32,020 bases of DNA from contig JAUSHW010000116.1 in NCBI GenBank assembly GCA_030648395.1, forward strand, positions 1-32,020. Direction: 5' to 3'. This stretch comes from Nitrospirales bacterium. Its GTDB lineage: Bacteria > Nitrospirota > Nitrospiria > Nitrospirales > NS-4. The notes under the pieces were generated by a model that was given only the letters and a program-made list of their open reading frames with translations, was not told the DNA's origin and did not search any database. Below, piece by piece: positions 12,848 to 23,411 of this stretch (position 1 is its first letter; each line of letters begins with the position of its first letter). The position numbers were made by a program, and so were the translations under genes.

Positions 12848-14185
12848 TTAATCCGCTACGGCAAGTTCGACCAGGGTCTCGATATGCATGGTCTGCGGAA
12901 ACATGTCATACCCCTGCAGCCGCGTCACGCGGTACCCCGCCTCCTGCATTGCGCGCAGGTCGCGCGCCAGTGTCGGCGGATCGCAGGACAAATAGAGGAT
13001 GCGGCCGGCTTTGAGATGGACCAACCCTGCGAGGGCCTCTTTGCTGAGACCCGTCCGGGGGGGGTCCATCAGGACGAGGTCGTATTCTCCCGGAGCCGCG
13101 CCCGGAAGAAACGCCTCGGCGGACTCTGATCGGAACCGGCACCGCCCGATATGGTTGACCCGCGCATTGTAGCGGGCATCCGCCAGGGCCGACGAATTCC
13201 CCTCCACGAACGTCACCAACGCCCCTTCCCGCGCAATCGCTAAACCGAAGTTCCCGATCCCCGCGTAGAGTTCGAGCACGCGAAGCGGTGTGCCCGTTTG
13301 GGCCTCCAAAGACCAGGCTGTCACAGTTTGGGCCAGGGTTTCGTTCAGCTTCCAATTGGCCTGCACGAACGACCGGTCGCTGCATCGCAGGCGCAGGGGA
13401 CCGACTTGTTCGGTGAGCGTGGTCTCCCCCTCCGTCCAGCGACGCTGCTGGGCGCCGCGCCCGGCGATCATCACCTGTCCCTTCACGCCGGCGAATCCCG
13501 CCCGGACCCGCGCAAACCAGGCGTCGGCTTGCGGGCGCTGGCACTGTTCCGCCACGTACTGGAACACGACCTCCCCGGTCGTCACCGACAGGCCGAGGCG
13601 GATCTCCTGCAACTGGGAGGCCGCCGCCCGCGAGCCGGCCAGCATCTGATTGAAATACGCGACGGCCTCGTTGAGACGCGGCGCGAGTAGTGGGCACTGC
13701 GCGATCGGCACCGGCCGGTGGCTGCCTTCTTCGAAGTACGCGAGGCTCGGCGCGCCGCGCGAGGGCACCGCCACCGCGAGCCGCGCGCGGCTGCGGTAGC
13801 CATAGACTTCGGGCGACGCCGTCACCGGCGGCACGTGGATCTCGGCCAGCCCGCCCATTCGCGCGAGGGTCTCCGCCAGAATATCCCGCTTGATCGCAAG
13901 CTGGGCCGTTGCACTCGCGTGCTGGAGCTGGCACCCGCCGCACCGGCCGTAGACCGGACAGGGCGCCGCCACGCGGTCCGGGGACGGCTGGACGACTTCA
14001 AGGAGCCGTGCCTCCCCATATCCCTTTTTGACGCGCCCCGGTTGCACGCGCACCTGCTCGCCCGGCAGCACGCCCTCGACAAACAGCGCCAGCGCCTCCT
14101 GGTGGGCCAGTCCGCGCCCGCCGTGCACGAGCTTCTCGATCTGAATGAGAAGGGTTGGGTCTGTTTGTATGTCTGGGGAGGTCAT
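12848..14185 (-). CDS. rlmD: 23S rRNA (uracil-5-)-methyltransferase, RlmD/RumA family
   Basis: TRAM-like N-terminus (LIQIEKLVHGGRGLAHQE), CPVYGRCGGCQLQH Fe-S motif, ELYAGIGNFGL, DPPRTGLSKEA, YLSCDPPTLARDL. Start taken at MTSPDIQ (14185). Confidence 0.92.
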   Translation of the reverse strand: MTSPDIQTDPTLLIQIEKLVHGGRGLAHQEALALFVEGVLPGEQVRVQPGRVKKGYGEARLLEVVQPSPDRVAAPCPVYGRCGGCQLQHASATAQLAIKRDILAETLARMGGLAEIHVPPVTASPEVYGYRSRARLAVAVPSRGAPSLAYFEEGSHRPVPIAQCPLLAPRLNEAVAYFNQMLAGSRAAASQLQEIRLGLSVTTGEVVFQYVAEQCQRPQADAWFARVRAGFAGVKGQVMIAGRGAQQRRWTEGETTLTEQVGPLRLRCSDRSFVQANWKLNETLAQTVTAWSLEAQTGTPLRVLELYAGIGNFGLAIAREGALVTFVEGNSSALADARYNARVNHIGRCRFRSESAEAFLPGAAPGEYDLVLMDPPRTGLSKEALAGLVHLKAGRILYLSCDPPTLARDLRAMQEAGYRVTRLQGYDMFPQTMHIETLVELAVAD

Positions 14186-14264
14186 GGCCGATGAGTGTAC
14201 CACGAGAACGCAGCCGATGTCGGCTCCCGCATCCGCCAGGCGTCCCATGGTAAAATATGCTCCT

Positions 14265-14807
14265 ATGAAAGAGGGAAAAGAAATCGCCACGCTGGCGGGC
14301 GGATGCTTCTGGTGTCTCGAAGCGGTGTACGACCAGATGCGCGGGGTCGAGTCGGTCGAGTCCGGCTACATGGGCGGGCCGGCGCCCAATCCGTCCTACG
14401 AAGCGGTCTGCACGGGCCGGACCGGCCACGCCGAAGTCGTGCAGATCACGTTCGATCACGCGGCCGTGTCCTTCCGCGAGCTGCTCGAGGTTTTCTTCGT
14501 GATCCACGATCCGACCCAGCTCAACCGCCAGGGCAACGACACGGGCACGCAGTACCGCTCGGCGATCTTCTGCCACTCGCCGGAGCAGAAGGCGGTCGCC
14601 GAGGCCGTGATCGCCGGCTTCACCAATGAAAAAGTCTTCGACCGGCCGATCGTCACCCAGGTCGTCGCCGCCGAGCCCTTCTACATCGCCGAGGACTATC
14701 ACCAGGAATACTTCGCCCGCAACCCGACGCAGGGCTACTGCCAGGCCGTGGTCAATCCCAAAGTCGCCAAGTTCCGCACGCACTTCGCGGAGAAGATGAA
14801 GACGTAA
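14265..14807 (+). CDS. msrA: peptide-methionine (S)-S-oxide reductase
   Basis: MKEGKEIATLAGGCFWCLEAVYDQM (GCFWC), GGPAPNPSYEAVCTGRTGHAE, QYRSAIF, AEDYHQEY. A TAAAAT -10-like box lies just upstream. Confidence 0.96.
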   Translation: MKEGKEIATLAGGCFWCLEAVYDQMRGVESVESGYMGGPAPNPSYEAVCTGRTGHAEVVQITFDHAAVSFRELLEVFFVIHDPTQLNRQGNDTGTQYRSAIFCHSPEQKAVAEAVIAGFTNEKVFDRPIVTQVVAAEPFYIAEDYHQEYFARNPTQGYCQAVVNPKVAKFRTHFAEKMKT

Positions 14808-14827
14808 TCGGCGGCGGAAGAGATCAG

Positions 14828-15223
14828 CTATTTCCCGGCCAGATAATGCCGCAACGATATGAGGGGGATCCCCTGGTACTGCCTCAGTAGGAGCATCTCT
14901 TTATCGCCTGTGACGATGACATCCGCTTGACCGGATTCGGCGCACTCCAGGATGCGGTTGTCGGGGTCGTCCTTGAAGACCATCACCGTGTTCTTGGGTC
15001 TCACCAACTCGGCCATGTCCGTCACCATGACCGCCACATGGCTCAACGCCTCAGGGTCTCGGCTGAATTTCCTGGCCAGGGTGGATAACAGTTCGTCGAG
15101 GATCGGCTTGGAGATCAGCAGGGTGTCGGCGCCGTCGAGAATTCCCAAGACGGCCTTTTCGGCCTGAGAGCCGGGAATGACCAGGGCTGAGATGAAGATG
15201 TTGGTGTCAAAGACGACTCTCAC
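14828..15223 (-). CDS. PIN-domain toxin (COG1569-like, 'PIN family toxin component')
   Basis: 131 aa; MRVVFDTNIFISALV, KPILDELLSTL, DDPDNRILECAESGQADVIVTGDKEML acidic-residue pattern of PIN RNases. Confidence 0.88.
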   Translation of the reverse strand: MRVVFDTNIFISALVIPGSQAEKAVLGILDGADTLLISKPILDELLSTLARKFSRDPEALSHVAVMVTDMAELVRPKNTVMVFKDDPDNRILECAESGQADVIVTGDKEMLLLRQYQGIPLISLRHYLAGK

Positions 15224-15459
15224 CGAGCGGCCAGGTACTTGCGCAGATCACGCTCGGTGATGATGCCTTTCTCCTTGGCTTTGCGCGTCCAGTACCCTTG
15301 CACGGCGCGAAAGCCCTCTTTCAGGCGTTCCCGCTTGGCGAGCCGTAGGGCCTCCTGGATCACCGCGCTGACGGTCTTGCCTTCTTCCCGCGCGATCTCG
15401 TTGAGCTCTTTGGAGAGTGTCGGCGGGAGAGAAATCGTTTTTTTAACCGCTGTGCCCAT
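15220..15459 (-). CDS. RHH/CopG-type antitoxin partner of the PIN toxin
   Basis: MGTAVKKTISLPPTLSKELNEIAREEGKTVSAVIQEALRLAKRERL is an RHH pattern; 4-bp overlap with the PIN gene. Confidence 0.82.
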   Translation of the reverse strand: MGTAVKKTISLPPTLSKELNEIAREEGKTVSAVIQEALRLAKRERLKEGFRAVQGYWTRKAKEKGIITERDLRKYLAAR

Positions 15460-15513
15460 GGCGCTACCTCCGGTGTGAATAAATACTACCACAAGCCTGA
15501 TTGCCAGGCCAGA

Positions 15514-15552: not shown

Positions 15553-15583
15553 CAAGCACTTCGCGGAGAAGATGAAGAAGTGA
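15553..15583 (+). pseudogene. duplicated msrA 3'-end fragment
   Basis: AGCACTTCGCGGAGAAGATGAAGAAGTGA reads ...K-H-F-A-E-K-M-K-K-stop, matching the msrA tail T-H-F-A-E-K-M-K-T-stop (14779-14807); 23 bp identical core. Confidence 0.75.
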
Positions 15584-15628
15584 TGGGGATGTGAAGGGCG
15601 GTGGTGATCAAACAGTCAATGGCCGGCG
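15580..15628 (-). pseudogene. possible internal fragment of a vapC PIN gene
   Basis: Minus-strand frame reads APAIDCLITTALHIPI, resembling the VapC 'S-x-D-C-L-I-A-A-x-A' segment, directly after the vapB-like stop and directly abutting the msrA tail copy. Confidence 0.35.
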
Positions 15629-16735: not shown

Positions 16736-17191
16736 TCATTTTGATCGAAAACGATTGTACAGCTCGAGCATCTGCATTACTCGCTCTCTGGTAAGCTGTA
16801 CTCGTTTGGTGCCTCGCCTAGCGTTTATTGCTTTCTCTTGCCCTACAGCTACATTAAAGAAGATTTTGAATGGCGGGATGTAGCTGAATTCCATGAACTC
16901 CGACGGCGTGTACTCGTGAAATGTCCAGGCTCCATCGCGTTTCGTTGCAACTACGAAGCAATAGCGTTCCTCATGGGCCAACGCTGCCTCCCACTCGGTG
17001 AGCGTGGCTGCACCGAAGTAGCTGCTATCCTGAGCGGTGTACTTGATCTCGAAGTAAAAAACATCGCCGCCCCTGCGCGCTTTAATGTCCGCAGGACTTC
17101 TGGTGACCAAAGCCTCATCGAAACCACGTCCCAACAACTCTTCGATAAATGCCGCCTTCGCGTCAATGTCACTTTTGGAATTGACAACCAT
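16736..17191 (-). CDS. PD-(D/E)XK / DUF3883-like nuclease-fold protein
   Basis: 151 aa; SPADIKARRGGDVFYFEIKYT gives D-x(n)-E-x-K, followed by FGAATLTEWEAALAHEERYCFVVAT as in DUF3883/'NO VEIN C-terminal' nuclease-fold domains. Confidence 0.6.
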   Translation of the reverse strand: MVVNSKSDIDAKAAFIEELLGRGFDEALVTRSPADIKARRGGDVFYFEIKYTAQDSSYFGAATLTEWEAALAHEERYCFVVATKRDGAWTFHEYTPSEFMEFSYIPPFKIFFNVAVGQEKAINARRGTKRVQLTRERVMQMLELYNRFRSK

Positions 17192-17888: not shown

Positions 17889-19001
17889 CTACACTGAAAA
17901 AGTGTAGTCCGTCTCGTACAGGCATCCCTTACTTTTCGGTAAAAAGCTCTGCGCTTGTCGGCTAACAATTTCCGACCGCTCGGGCCTCTTAAGTAAACGG
18001 GCTGTTGAGAAGGCGCTACGCATAGAAGCTCTCAACCCAGAAGTCATCTCGTCTTCAGTAATTCCGATTCCGCCCAAACGAATAACGACTTTCGCTGAAT
18101 GCCTCAGCAACGGAGCTATCCCCTGCCACGCTTCTTCAAGGAACTGCCAGTATTTTGGGGCTGTATGGTGGCGGTCATCCCGGGAGACCACCCCGTATGT
18201 CGGCTGTGGGAGCCCGCCTAAAAACCAGAGCCGTAGCCATTGATCTTCTTCGTATCGAGTCACATTCAAATAAGGTGGCGATGTCACTACAAGAGCAACC
18301 TTACCGTGCAGGCCTGTAAAGCGGTTAGCAGCATTGCGAACGTCAGCCAATTTGACGGATCCGCTTCCACATTTAGGTACGTCCTTAAGCCGAGACTCTG
18401 CCTTTTGTCTCAACATTTCAAAAACTTTTCGCTTCTTTGGAAAGAGATCGTTAGACCTCCAGTACCGCAGTGAATAATCCGGCTTGAGGCAGATTGTCCT
18501 CGGCATCTGATTGCTGAAATAAGCATTCGAACGATCCATTTCGCCGTGCAAGGAACCTAAGATGAGGGCAGCTATAAACCGGTCTACTCGTTCATCCTTC
18601 CATTCTAAGGATGTGCGGAGAGACAATAACTCTCTAAGAGTGGTGGGGTAAAATGCCCTTCTAAAAAAACGCGGCAAAGAAGTTCTGAGTCTCTCCCACC
18701 TCGTTTGCTCACTCATGCCATATCGACTTTCTAATGTTTCGATTCGCTCCAGAACTGCCCGCAAAGCAGGGCGTTCCGCCTTAGCACGGGAGACGCAAAA
18801 TGCGACAGGGTTCATATCTGATCCCGCCGCCTTACGGCCAAGTAGCAGCGATTCGAGAATCGTAGTGCCTCGACCACAAAACGGGTCAAAGACCACATCT
18901 CCTTCTTTGGAATATTTTTCAACCTGCTTCCTTACAAATTCCTCAGGGAACATGGCGAAATAAGGACAAATCGCGTGCAAGGATATTCTTGCCCGAGTCA
19001 T
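17889..19001 (-). CDS. site-specific DNA methyltransferase (SPPY-type)
   Basis: 370 aa; SAM motif DPFCGRGTTILESLLLGRKAAGSDMNP near N-terminus, catalytic VVTSPPYLNVTRY near residue ~240, ~180 aa variable region between. Confidence 0.9.
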   Translation of the reverse strand: MTRARISLHAICPYFAMFPEEFVRKQVEKYSKEGDVVFDPFCGRGTTILESLLLGRKAAGSDMNPVAFCVSRAKAERPALRAVLERIETLESRYGMSEQTRWERLRTSLPRFFRRAFYPTTLRELLSLRTSLEWKDERVDRFIAALILGSLHGEMDRSNAYFSNQMPRTICLKPDYSLRYWRSNDLFPKKRKVFEMLRQKAESRLKDVPKCGSGSVKLADVRNAANRFTGLHGKVALVVTSPPYLNVTRYEEDQWLRLWFLGGLPQPTYGVVSRDDRHHTAPKYWQFLEEAWQGIAPLLRHSAKVVIRLGGIGITEDEMTSGLRASMRSAFSTARLLKRPERSEIVSRQAQSFLPKSKGCLYETDYTFSV

Positions 19002-19882
19002 GATGTAATCCTATCGAGTACGCACTCACACCACTTAATACTGTTTTGCTTGGTGACTTCACAGAACTCATCGTTCTTGGCCCAGTAAGCAATCCTGCAA
19101 CGATCAAAGAACAGTTTTGCTGATATCGCCCTATCGTCCCATACTTCTTGAGAAAGCCGATGCGGAATAAAGAACGTCTTAACTATTGGGCTTCTGTCAC
19201 CTCCCAGCCATTTGCTACAGAAATCGTTTGGCTGAAGTTCGTTTATTTTCTCGTCCCAGTCTCCACCTGAAGCACAATGCCCGAAAAGAATTACCTTGCC
19301 AATCCGCCGGTCAGGAAAAGGCTTCCATGCCACTAAATCTAGGCCGTCGTCTTTTTTGCGTAACGTCTTTCCTCTGTGGGAACAACTCCACTCTTGAACT
19401 TTTTCACATAGGACATGTAAGGCGTCCCGAAAACCAGCCGGCAATTCCTTGCGTGGGGCTCCGAACCGAACGGCCTCTCCGCCGATGTAGTTGCGAGCCG
19501 CAATGCAAGAAAGTTGTTCAAACATTACTTCATGCCTGAGACCGCTAGTCTTCTTTTTTTTATTATCGCAATAGGACAGTAGCAGGCAAAAAACATACGG
19601 AGTAAAACCTCGCCAGTCACCCTTCACCGCCAACAATGTCCCCGAGAAAGAGAACGGATAGTTCTCTGCTGTCGCAATAACACGTCTGTTTAGTTCCATC
19701 ATTGAATCTTTGCAAATGCTATCAATGTCATCTGCGCCAAGCCTGTTCAATCCTCGCTCGAGATCGCCATGACTTGAATTGCCATCGTCCGCGTTCAGAG
19801 CCAAGAGCTCTAGCCAATCGGCCAGAACGATCGGATCGGTGGTGTCGGATGGCAAAGGAATGCTGCCGGGCATACTTCTCAC
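18998..19882 (-). CDS. putative restriction-endonuclease-like protein coupled to the methyltransferase
   Basis: 294 aa; KKDDGLDLVAWKPFPDRRIGKVILFGHCASGGDWDEK resembles the active-site region of PD-(D/E)XK-like defence proteins; overlaps both neighbours by 4 bp. Confidence 0.6.
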   Translation of the reverse strand: MRSMPGSIPLPSDTTDPIVLADWLELLALNADDGNSSHGDLERGLNRLGADDIDSICKDSMMELNRRVIATAENYPFSFSGTLLAVKGDWRGFTPYVFCLLLSYCDNKKKKTSGLRHEVMFEQLSCIAARNYIGGEAVRFGAPRKELPAGFRDALHVLCEKVQEWSCSHRGKTLRKKDDGLDLVAWKPFPDRRIGKVILFGHCASGGDWDEKINELQPNDFCSKWLGGDRSPIVKTFFIPHRLSQEVWDDRAISAKLFFDRCRIAYWAKNDEFCEVTKQNSIKWCECVLDRITS

Positions 19883-20994
19883 CCCTTCACCTTTTTATGC
19901 ATTTCGTCGGCTATGCTCTTGGCAAGGTCGAGAAGTCCATCCATAACGTGCAACATATCCTTCTCTCCTTTGTAGCCAGTGGTCACCGTAGCCTTTGCCT
20001 CTTGCAAGGCATCCTTTGCCCTTACCAACGCTTCTTGAAAACGTCGATCGTCTCCTAGGCTGATTTCATAAGCACGTTGCAAACTGATACCCGAACGTAG
20101 TGCATAAAGGGCCTGCCTATTCCCTAGAACGCGCCGCAAATATTTGAGATGGGGGTTCTGCTTTTCAACGACAGGCGATTTGCTATCTGACTTACTACCA
20201 AATAACCAGATCATTAATTCGGCAAGCTGGGGAAGATGTGCCTTGGGAACGGGGCTGTCCTTTAATGAACGCTCTGGATCAATTCCGAGGAATGCCTGGA
20301 ATTCCTTTTGATCAGCAGCCGTATATAAATGTGAAAAGTAAAATCGGTTGGCAATTCGGTCCTCTCGTTTAAATTCAGTCATCTTCTCGGCTTGTTCGAG
20401 CAAGACATAGCCTCGATAGATTCTGGCTACTGTGCTATGTTGGTCTCCTATCTTTCTTGCAATCTCATCAAGCGAAATTTCGTACTCGCGTCGAACATTC
20501 ACTATGTAGGACGCCTTGCTAAAAGAGTCCCACTCTTTTGGACCATTCACATGGCGAAAGCCAAAAAACTCCCACAGTGATTCTTTGTTGGGATATTCTG
20601 ATACTGGCAGTTGCGCAAGATCTTTCCGTTGCTTGGATGATATTTCAGGAAGGTCGGTTGCCTTAATCACACGCCGCAATTCGGAATCACATAAAAGCTT
20701 CACGGCAGCAAGTCTGCGGTTGCCTTCAACAACAATAAACTGCTGCTTTGCTGGGTCCTTTTCTCTAGGAAGTTTCGGAACTACAAAAAGCGGCTCTTCC
20801 TCAAAATAGCCGTTGGCTGCAATGGATAAAGCAACTTCGCTAACGGCCATCTCATCCCAAAGAACCTGAACAAGTCCTTCTTGGGTCTGCTTTTCTCCGA
20901 TAGAGCTAAGCCTTGGATTCTCTGGATCCAGCAGAAGACGATGAACATCCATGAACTCTACTTTTAGTTTCTTTCGCTCGTGTTGCGCTGACAT
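19879..20994 (-). CDS. ParB/Srx-like N-terminal domain protein with HTH
   Basis: Start MSAQHERKKLKVEFMDVHRLLLDPENPRL at 20994 (alternative 21036); QFIVVEGNRRLAAVKLL matches the ParB GxRR box; EISLDEIARKIGDQHSTVARIYRGYVLLEQ is a ParB/KorB-like HTH. Confidence 0.8.
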   Translation of the reverse strand: MSAQHERKKLKVEFMDVHRLLLDPENPRLSSIGEKQTQEGLVQVLWDEMAVSEVALSIAANGYFEEEPLFVVPKLPREKDPAKQQFIVVEGNRRLAAVKLLCDSELRRVIKATDLPEISSKQRKDLAQLPVSEYPNKESLWEFFGFRHVNGPKEWDSFSKASYIVNVRREYEISLDEIARKIGDQHSTVARIYRGYVLLEQAEKMTEFKREDRIANRFYFSHLYTAADQKEFQAFLGIDPERSLKDSPVPKAHLPQLAELMIWLFGSKSDSKSPVVEKQNPHLKYLRRVLGNRQALYALRSGISLQRAYEISLGDDRRFQEALVRAKDALQEAKATVTTGYKGEKDMLHVMDGLLDLAKSIADEMHKKVKG

Positions 20995-21021
20995 AGAGCC
21001 TCCCACAATTATTCGAAGAAG

Positions 21022-21057
21022 GGGGACAGGCACCATTCGGAAATGGAGCTAGTCCCC
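21022..21057. repeat. imperfect palindrome, GGGGACAGGC type
   Basis: GGGGACAGGCACCATT-CGG(A)-AATGGAGCTAGTCCCC; 13 of 16 arm positions pair. Confidence 0.65.
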
Positions 21058-21060
21058 ATC

Positions 21061-21130
21061 GTTAATTCTCCGGTCGGACTTCGATGCCGAGGGTTTTGAT
21101 TTTGCGGTGGAGTTTGGAGCGCTCTAAATC
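21061..21130 (-). pseudogene. duplicated 3' end of an ntrX-like response-regulator gene
   Basis: Minus strand CTGGATTTAGAGCGCTCCAAACTCCACCGCAAAATCAAAACCCTCGGCATCGAAGTCCGACCGGAGAATTAA = LDLERSKLHRKIKTLGIEVRPEN*, nearly identical to the intact gene's ...VERSHLHRKIKTLGIEVRPEN*. Confidence 0.9.
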
Positions 21131-21522
21131 CAGACAACCTTCACTTCCTTCTCCACAGCCTTGAACTCTGGATCCCCTGTATAGATTTCGAGCTTCTTCT
21201 GTTTAGCCAAAGCCGCTGCGAAGCAGTCGGCCAGGGACATCTTGTTTGATGCTTTGATCTCTCCTGCCATTTCAGCCAATCCCTGATCGGCCGGAACAAT
21301 TTCGATGGGAAGACCTAAGAGCTTGTGGCGCACTTCAGCCCACTTGCCCGCCCCTACCTTTCGCTCCACCATATAACGGACCTCAGCCCAGTTCGGAGCA
21401 ACCATGAAGAGAGCCTTGTCTGCTTCCGCTGCCTTCTCAAGAAGCTCCGCTACCTTCTCGGACCCTTTCTCCTGGAAGAGGAAGGCCAGCACCGCATAGC
21501 TATCGAGCACCGAGCTTTTCAA
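21124..21522 (-). CDS. PIN-domain toxin, VapC-like
   Basis: 132 aa; VLDSYAVLAFLFQEKGSEKV, NWAEVRYMVER, KMSLADCFAAALAKQKKLEIYTGDPEFK. Confidence 0.92.
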   Translation of the reverse strand: MKSSVLDSYAVLAFLFQEKGSEKVAELLEKAAEADKALFMVAPNWAEVRYMVERKVGAGKWAEVRHKLLGLPIEIVPADQGLAEMAGEIKASNKMSLADCFAAALAKQKKLEIYTGDPEFKAVEKEVKVVWI

Positions 21523-21763
21523 GCTTGGCCTCCTCTCGTTCCTTGTCCCTGGCCCGTTCTTTCAGCAACTCATGGGTTACCGAAGTCTCGCTCTTGAGCA
21601 TGCCGCACACACTCCGGATGTATTCCTTGGTGACCGGCTGGAAAAGGATTTCATTCTCGCGCTCGACAAAACACACCTTAGTGCCCGGCTTAATCCCGTA
21701 CCGCCTGCGAAGTTTTGCGGGGACAACGAGCTGTCCTTTGCTTGTGACATAGGCTGTCTCCAT
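21500..21763 (-). CDS. AbrB/MazE-family antitoxin
   Basis: METAYVTSKGQLVVPAKLRRRYGIKPGTKVCFVERENEILFQPV is the SpoVT-AbrB pattern; 23-bp overlap with the PIN gene. Confidence 0.93.
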   Translation of the reverse strand: METAYVTSKGQLVVPAKLRRRYGIKPGTKVCFVERENEILFQPVTKEYIRSVCGMLKSETSVTHELLKERARDKEREEAKLEKLGAR

Positions 21764-22010: not shown

Positions 22011-23387
22011 TCAGTTCTCCGGGCGGACTTCGATTCCGAGGGTTTTGATTTTGCGGTGGAGGTGGGAGCGCTCGACTTTGAGGTCGTCGGCGGTTTTGGA
22101 GACGTTCCAGTTGTGCTCGCGGAGCTTGCGCCCGATGTACTCGCGCTCGAACGCCGCCCGCGCATCCTTGAGCGACGCGTAGTCGAACGCCGACGGCACC
22201 TGCGGCGGATGGATCTCGCCGGACTGCCGCACAAGCGGCGCCACGTCCACCCCCTGGATATCGGCGCCGCGCGCCATGATCACCACCCGCTCCACCAGAT
22301 TCCTCAGCTCCCGCACATTCCCCGGCCAGTCGTGCCGTGCCAGCACCTCCAGGGCCTCGGGCGTGAACTTCCGCGGACGCAGCCCCTGCTCCTCCATGTT
22401 GATCTGCATGAAATGCTCGACCAGCGCGGGAATGTCCTCCCGCCGCTCGCGCAACGGCGGCGCGTCGATCTGCAGGACCGCCAGCCGGAAATAGAGGTCC
22501 TCGCGGAACGTCCCCTTGCGGATTTCCTCCATCAGGTTCTTGTTGGACGCCGCCAGAACCCGGACGTCCACCTTGATCGGCTTGGTGCCGCCGACCCGCT
22601 GGAACCGCTGCTCCTGCAGCACGCGCAGCACTTTGGCCTGCGTGGCAAGACTCATGTCCCCGACCTCGTCCAGAAACAGCGTCCCGCCGTCCGCCAGCTC
22701 GAACTGGCCGCGCCGCGTCGCCGACGCCCCGGTGAAGGCGCCCTTCTCATGCCCGAACAGCTCGCTCTCGATCAGCGTCTCGGGAATGGCCGCGCAATTG
22801 ACCTCGATGAAGGGCCGGTCGGCGCGCGGGCTGTGCAGATGAATCGCGTGGGCCACCAACTCCTTGCCGGTGCCGTTTTCACCGGAGATCAGCACGCGGC
22901 TCGGCGCCGGCCCGGCCATCTCGATCTGCTGGCGCAGCTCCTTCATCACCGAGCTGTCACCCACCATCTTGATGCGCCGGGTGGCCCGCTCCTTGAGGGA
23001 CCGGTTCTCCTGCTCCAGCCTGCGCTCGTGCAGGGCGTGACGGACCAGGAGCGTGACTTTTTCGAGGGAGAGCGGCTTTTCGATGTAGTCGTAGGCGCCG
23101 AGCTTGATGGCCTTGACCGCCGATTCGATGGAGCCGTGGCCGGACATCATCACGACCAGGGGGCGCGGGCGCATCTCCATCATGCGGCGGAGCGTCTCGA
23201 TGCCGTCGAGGTCGGGCATCCAGATGTCGAGGAGCACCAGATCCGGCGCGGGGTCGGCTTTGACGAGCTTGAGGGCTTCCTGGCCGTCACCGGCCGACGT
23301 GACCTCGTAGCCCTCGTCCTGAAAAATTCCGGAAAGCGTATCGAGAATCGCCGGCTCGTCGTCCACAATGAGAAGATGGCTGGCCAT
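22011..23387 (-). CDS. sigma-54-dependent response regulator, NtrX-like
   Basis: LLIVDDEPAIL receiver; GENGTGKELVAHAIH Walker A, ESELFGHEKGAFTGA GAFTGA loop, DWPGNVRELRN, Fis-type HTH at C-terminus. Start at MASHLL (23387) or 23408. Confidence 0.94.
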   Translation of the reverse strand: MASHLLIVDDEPAILDTLSGIFQDEGYEVTSAGDGQEALKLVKADPAPDLVLLDIWMPDLDGIETLRRMMEMRPRPLVVMMSGHGSIESAVKAIKLGAYDYIEKPLSLEKVTLLVRHALHERRLEQENRSLKERATRRIKMVGDSSVMKELRQQIEMAGPAPSRVLISGENGTGKELVAHAIHLHSPRADRPFIEVNCAAIPETLIESELFGHEKGAFTGASATRRGQFELADGGTLFLDEVGDMSLATQAKVLRVLQEQRFQRVGGTKPIKVDVRVLAASNKNLMEEIRKGTFREDLYFRLAVLQIDAPPLRERREDIPALVEHFMQINMEEQGLRPRKFTPEALEVLARHDWPGNVRELRNLVERVVIMARGADIQGVDVAPLVRQSGEIHPPQVPSAFDYASLKDARAAFEREYIGRKLREHNWNVSKTADDLKVERSHLHRKIKTLGIEVRPEN

Positions 23388-23411
23388 GGCGGTCGCGGTG
23401 ATTGACACAGG

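Follow-up and report, generated by a model that had tools for sequence, protein, structure and literature searches.

What do three minus-strand genes, encoding a ParB-like protein, a protein of 294 aa (here called p2), and a DNA methyltransferase, do together in the genome of a Nitrospirales bacterium? The genes lie in the window, by which we mean the whole stretch of 32,020 nucleotides that was analyzed, and all three ORFs are present and intact where the initial annotation had placed them:

19879–20994, minus strand: ParB-like protein gene, 371 aa from ATG 20994 (the longest ORF, to 21036, is 385 aa)
20713–20727, minus strand: ParB nucleotide-binding (P-motif-like) box EGNRR, residues 104–108 of the 385-aa ORF; nucleotide binding predicted
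20380–20472, minus strand: predicted helix–turn–helix (HTH) of the ParB-like protein, helices 189–196 and 202–219 from AlphaFold2 secondary structure
18998–19873, minus strand: p2, predicted Mrr-like PD-(D/E)XK nuclease gene, 291 aa from ATG 19873 (294 aa from GTG 19882)
19247–19351, minus strand: putative p2 catalytic site, D178, D182, H202 (Q in most relatives), and K212 (displaced lysine)
17889–19001, minus strand: N6_N4-type DNA methyltransferase gene (PF01555, 7.6e-18)

These genes had tentatively been read as a restriction–modification (RM)-like system in which a ParB-like protein is the third obligate partner. Our analyses suggest that the operon is quite likely an RM-type defense system, the restriction half of which consists of the ParB-like protein and a predicted Mrr-like nuclease. 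This reading draws on the genes themselves, their conserved linkage, the exchange of the methyltransferase, protein folds of ParB and nuclease type, and an active site that is conserved. It also draws on a patchy, mobile distribution that includes the P2-prophage hotspot.

Both gene junctions had been described as 4-bp overlaps. The ATGA overlap at 18998–19001, between p2 and the methyltransferase, is real, but that at 19879–19882, between ParB and p2, requires a GTG start for p2. The homologs favor ATG 19873, three codons past the GTG, where the methionine is kept in 78 of 83; thus, the ParB and p2 genes are probably ~5 nt apart and the second overlap is probably an artifact of start choice. 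Because homologs of the ParB-like protein begin at residue 15 of the 385-aa ORF, its start is probably ATG 20994 rather than 21036. The operon genes are under purifying selection, with dN values of 0.13–0.28 and saturated dS in comparisons with three related loci (L013, L014, and L017; relatives 65–83% identical).

An alignment-based ParB scan of species-representative genomes returned at least 546 relatives, of which the best 80 were fetched, and further loci were added from viral contigs, phages, and plasmids. In 209 of 220 loci the ParB-like gene and p2 are adjacent and codirectional, with ParB first. The two form a near-obligate pair and diverge together, their divergences being correlated with r values of 0.74–0.89. 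The genome loci, the best 80 of at least 546 ParB relatives, span 22 named phyla, and many other loci lie in prophages; since the phage and viral loci include near-duplicates, the locus counts are not counts of independent events. The exact gene order of the window recurs in its closest clade (L013, L014, L017 and, up to its contig end, L016), with identities to the window of ~66–71% for p2 and 65–70% for the methyltransferase. Several exceptions to the pairing come down to the end of a contig or, at L051, to a broken gene. A genuine exception is L015, which encodes a ParB-like protein 74% identical to that of the window but neither p2 nor its methyltransferase. After ParB in this locus (L015:8004–12684) come a C5 methyltransferase, a HATPase protein that weakly matches PD-(D/E)XK and, by eye, a Vsr-like ORF, and it looks as if one RM-type system had replaced the rest of another. 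On phage contig MT835579, two convergent ParB–p2 modules are present (L006:4779–9618), and a C5 methyltransferase gene is located nearby (1215–2777).

The third gene of the operon, previously called an SPPY-type methyltransferase, indeed harbors motif I (DPFCGRG, 18867–18887) and SPPY (18270–18281). Motif I precedes SPPY; the enzyme is circularly permuted and likely of the N4-cytosine type. Co-occurrence of the three families extends well beyond the window, as a DNA methyltransferase is found near 196 of the 209 ParB–p2 pairs (94%), with one further D12 gene, at L044, beyond this count. These methyltransferases come from unrelated families: 90 are D12 (PF02086), 80 are C5 (PF00145), and 26 are N6_N4 (PF01555). 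Their proximity to the pair is far above chance in the genome loci. Across the 80 genome loci, the density of methyltransferase genes is 0.90 per kb of flank up to 500 bp from the pair and 0–0.016 per kb beyond; in the bacterial genome loci, 65 of them lie within 500 bp, with only 4 at 0.5–7 kb. On a tree built on 128 distinct ParB rows, the methyltransferase class changes 13 times, compared with a mean of 49.6 when shuffled, which indicates that the class was swapped repeatedly and yet is matched to the ParB lineage. Judged from these sequence comparisons, the methyltransferase is the exchangeable part of the system. The earlier proposal of an RM-like system with three partners is largely supported, but the term obligate applies best to the ParB–nuclease pair. 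At least five pairs (L010, L011, L056, L076, and L077) have no methyltransferase despite room on both sides, suggesting that some pairs may do without protection; these loci could be restriction halves on their own, copies in decay, or pairs protected by an unlinked enzyme.

The ParB-like protein matches phrog_3694 over its full length (5e-77). The GxRR-type box and HTH that had been attributed to it are both found: the box, EGNRRLAA, occupies residues 104–111, running from window position 20727 downwards, and the HTH helices are present in a confident AlphaFold2 model (pLDDT of 92.7). EGNRR, which we take to correspond to the ParB GERR box, is invariant in 75 aligned ParB homologs, as are H162, G165, W169, and K174. 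Foldseek comparison of the model retrieved ParB and Noc structures (E from 3e-5, probability 1.00), consistent with a ParB-CTPase N-terminal fold that retains the P-motif arginines. The global TM to these structures is low, so that the domain arrangement of the window protein differs. Binding of CTP, ATP, or GTP is known for other proteins with this fold (PMC12704722), and the ParB-type nucleotide-binding fold serves in the defense proteins DndB, SspE, and GmrS/DUF262 (PMC12704722, PMC12373910). The operon shares with these the use of a ParB-type fold in defense; however, they have other domain partners, the window system is without a phosphorothioate or modified-base context, and the sequences are not close. 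A ParABS partition system was considered and rejected, as none of the recurrent neighbor families, which are partly annotated, was conspicuous as a partition-type partner.

The p2 protein matches phrog_14650 (2e-24), and its AlphaFold model is very confident (pLDDT of 94.6); PADLOC 2.0 provides no model for it, and this is equally true of eight diverse relatives. Foldseek comparison of the p2 model with the PDB gave no match with E < 0.001. The best match, which is weak, is MspJI (E of 0.068, probability 0.84), Can2/Card1 nucleases are also among the matches, and the viral structure matches include Mrr-like and restriction endonucleases. A p2 profile sequence search of the PDB yielded no match up to E = 1. 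Compared with the Mrr profile, p2 gave P = 0.00078 over a short match, with 14 control families at or above 0.06, and the alignment places D178/D182 and Q202-C-x of p2 on the D…QxK motif of Mrr. D178 and D182 are invariant in 90 p2 homologs, and in the clade of the window H202 replaces the glutamine. Exactly one lysine, at 204 or ~212, is present in 122 of 126 distinct p2 sequences, the other four having both or neither. It is located at 204 (QCK type) in 42 of the 126 relatives, in 40 of them at 204 only, and is displaced ~8–10 residues on, after an aromatic residue, in 82 (K212 in the window). A Fisher test of this lysine swap gives p = 3e-11, which we do not treat as proof, given only two changes of the trait on the tree. 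From the Mrr-profile alignment, the putative D…Q-x-K site, and the displaced lysine we infer that p2 is an Mrr-like PD-(D/E)XK nuclease with a migrated lysine, an assignment indicated by weak structural matches and a short profile match. Both structure and profile comparison thus favor a nuclease over a nonnuclease fold for the 294-aa protein, in agreement with what had been proposed for it.

Canonical Mrr and MspJI are modification-dependent enzymes, so a protective mark fits them less directly, which counts against the RM reading. The p2 catalytic domain is most like these cutters of modified DNA, and ParB/Srx-DUF262 proteins act in the GmrSD type IV enzymes (PMC12373910). The ParB–p2 pair could accordingly be type IV-like and cut modified phage DNA, with the methyltransferase loosely associated or otherwise employed, and the few pairs that have no methyltransferase would fit this arrangement. 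That 94% of the pairs do have one, from three different families, makes such a function quite improbable, and a modification-dependent nuclease encoded beside a methyltransferase that makes its target would be self-destructive. There are also differences from the canonical enzymes themselves. Although p2 resembles Mrr and MspJI in its putative D…Q-x-K site and catalytic-domain alignment, with MspJI as its top PDB match, those enzymes have neither a ParB partner nor an adjacent methyltransferase, the N-terminal half of p2 is distinct, and the window clade has the displaced lysine and H for Q. In plan, the operon resembles classical type II RM systems, in which a methyltransferase stands beside a rapidly diverging nuclease and the distribution is patchy and mobile. 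As in those systems, it encodes a methyltransferase with catalytic motifs (the PF01555 match, DPFCGRG, and SPPY) and a linked endonuclease of predicted nuclease fold, for which the profile match is significant and the structural matches are weak. In contrast to them, the restriction half comprises two proteins, one with a ParB fold, and the methyltransferase has been exchanged between three unrelated families.

No named system had been matched to the operon in the initial annotation. This holds insofar as PADLOC 2.0 contains no exact match, and we found no named three-gene ParB/nuclease/methyltransferase system in the open-access literature searched; a name may exist in REBASE, DefenseFinder, or subscription papers. 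However, a relative, PD-λ-5, had been missed, with which the system shares the ParB domain and the D12 family. The PADLOC model PD-Lambda-5_A matches residues 25–183 of the window ParB (4.1e-17); PADLOC matches to this protein fall mostly in its N-terminal ~180 residues, and the longest reaches residue 255. The ParB-like N-terminal domains of the two systems are homologous (hhalign 97.8–99.4%), and the D12 methyltransferase that most bacterial loci in our set encode is PD-Lambda-5_B (e.g., 3.6e-114 in a representative locus). In contrast, PD-λ-5_A has its own C-terminal domain without similarity to p2, PD-λ-5 has no separate nuclease gene, and the window methyltransferase belongs to N6_N4 (PF01555) and not D12; PD-Lambda-5_B is not among the 25 PADLOC matches listed. 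Identity of the operon with PD-λ-5 was rejected on the basis of this C-terminal domain and the methyltransferase class, and, going by sequence, we file the present system as a variant related to PD-λ-5 and RM systems, not as PD-λ-5 itself.

PD-λ-5 has been described as a compacted RM and abortive infection (Abi) system (Vassallo et al. 2022; PMC9519451). As the closest named system, with the ParB domain and the D12 family in common, it lends weight to an explanation that combines RM with abortive infection, whereby ParB–p2 would be a guarded toxin, restrained by methyltransferase activity or host methylation, that degrades DNA and kills the infected cell once a phage disturbs methylation. We regard this as unlikely, given that the operon lacks the C-terminal part of PD-λ-5_A, that p2 has no similarity to that part, and that an Mrr-like nuclease suits direct DNA restriction.

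Other candidates were also compared. The PADLOC candidate PDC-M38A has a similar ParB-like first part (1.5e-16), but its second part continues into or pairs with, by eye, an ATPase-like protein and not p2; the identification was rejected for this reason. Nor does p2 show similarity to a domain fused in PD-λ-5_A or AS1_27, or to gp41 of Vibrio phage ValB1MD-2. A scan of viral contigs with the single sequence AS1_27, which is PD-λ-5_A-like, found nothing. Three consecutive genes of phage ValB1MD-2 (L234:3132–5571) encode a ParB-like protein, an unrelated protein of 265 aa, and a DNA adenine methylase, possibly another ParB–effector–methyltransferase variant.

How might an RM-type system of this composition work? 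The methyltransferase would methylate a specific sequence in the host genome and thereby protect self DNA. With its HTH and its nucleotide pocket of ParB type, the ParB-like protein would serve as a sensor or switch that recognizes or patrols DNA without the methyl mark, and in its nucleotide-bound form would recruit or activate the adjacently encoded Mrr-like nuclease, which would then cut foreign DNA. The ParB nucleotide switch is known from chromosome segregation, and the idea that a ParB-type NTP switch might license cutting is attractive. In a more detailed version, which we put forward tentatively and consider rather doubtful, the ParB-like protein would be an NTP-gated clamp that loads at unmethylated sites, closes, slides, and licenses cutting by the Mrr-like nuclease. 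If true, this would represent switch-gated restriction with a methyltransferase exchangeable for unrelated chemistries.

Versions of the system are also found in phages and prophages. Coliphage Wphi, phage 12474III, and Pseudomonas phage D14A each harbor the ParB–p2 pair followed by a convergent C5 methyltransferase, and the 12474III version is flanked by the P2 portal and A genes, a known anti-phage defense hotspot (PMC9519451, PMC9122126). In complete Escherichia coli genomes, the full set is present in 139 of 5,426 (~2.6%), the Wphi version in 103 and the 12474III version in 36. The C5 methyltransferase was not found without its partners in these 5,426 genomes, the same 139 being assumed from exactly complementary counts. 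The ParB–nuclease pair with its methyltransferase is thus widespread, considering the at least 546 ParB relatives, the ~2.6% of complete E. coli genomes, and the typed examples at the P2-prophage hotspot. Even so, PADLOC 2.0, Pfam, and NCBIfam all lack a model of its nuclease. Comparison of the Wphi and 12474III versions reveals 97.8% identity for the methyltransferase, 34% for ParB, and 26% for p2, which suggests that the restriction and modification halves evolve as separable modules; such a pairing of almost the same methyltransferase with two strongly divergent restriction halves also provides a natural test of specificity determinants. The E. coli versions could in addition show whether the ParB nucleotide switch was recruited to control DNA restriction.

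RM systems can serve as addiction modules, and the trio is frequent on prophages and plasmids. Combined with the ParB homology, this could mean that the trio is mainly an addiction or plasmid/prophage-stability module, acting in mobile-element maintenance or competition and not in phage defense. Such a role appears very improbable: anti-phage cargo is typical of the P2 slot, and the large recurrent neighbor families, as far as annotated, comprise methyltransferases together with structural or replication genes of phages, none of them an obvious partition partner.

The genomic setting of the operon is that of an accessory region. The AT-richer stretch between GC-rich core genes that had been noted is evident, with a GC content of 0.48 in the operon stretch compared with 0.65 in both flanks. 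Two further features of this region are needed here:

12848–14290: tRNA (uracil-5-)-methyltransferase family member, flank of the island
14828–15223 and 15220–15492: PIN_3 and RHH genes, second toxin–antitoxin cassette

The island is missing from G004, which belongs to the same family and in which the counterpart of the 12848–14290 gene lies ~64 bp from the ortholog of the sigma-54 response regulator encoded at 22011–23408, indicating that the whole 14.3–22.0 kb stretch is accessory. In G001, from the same genus, the slot holds ~3.8 kb of mostly different genes, including a toxin–antitoxin-like pair (by eye). The 14.3–22.0 kb stretch is thus a variable slot, and p2 occurs in 5 of 296 genomes of the phylum, as expected of a mobile accessory system. 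A 59-nt direct repeat (93%), at 21066–21124 and 22015–22073, copies the 3′ end of the sigma-54 response-regulator gene and brackets an AbrB/PIN toxin–antitoxin cassette (21124–21763); G001 matches the outer copy and its adjacent flank, which suggests that insertion of the cassette at the end of the gene was accompanied by duplication. The second toxin–antitoxin cassette shows the same pattern, being flanked by a 35-nt direct repeat (89%) at 14777–14811 and 15553–15587. Just downstream of the operon, 16736–17191 encodes a small protein, possibly a nuclease, that has a NOV_C (DUF3883-like) domain and matches Hjc weakly.
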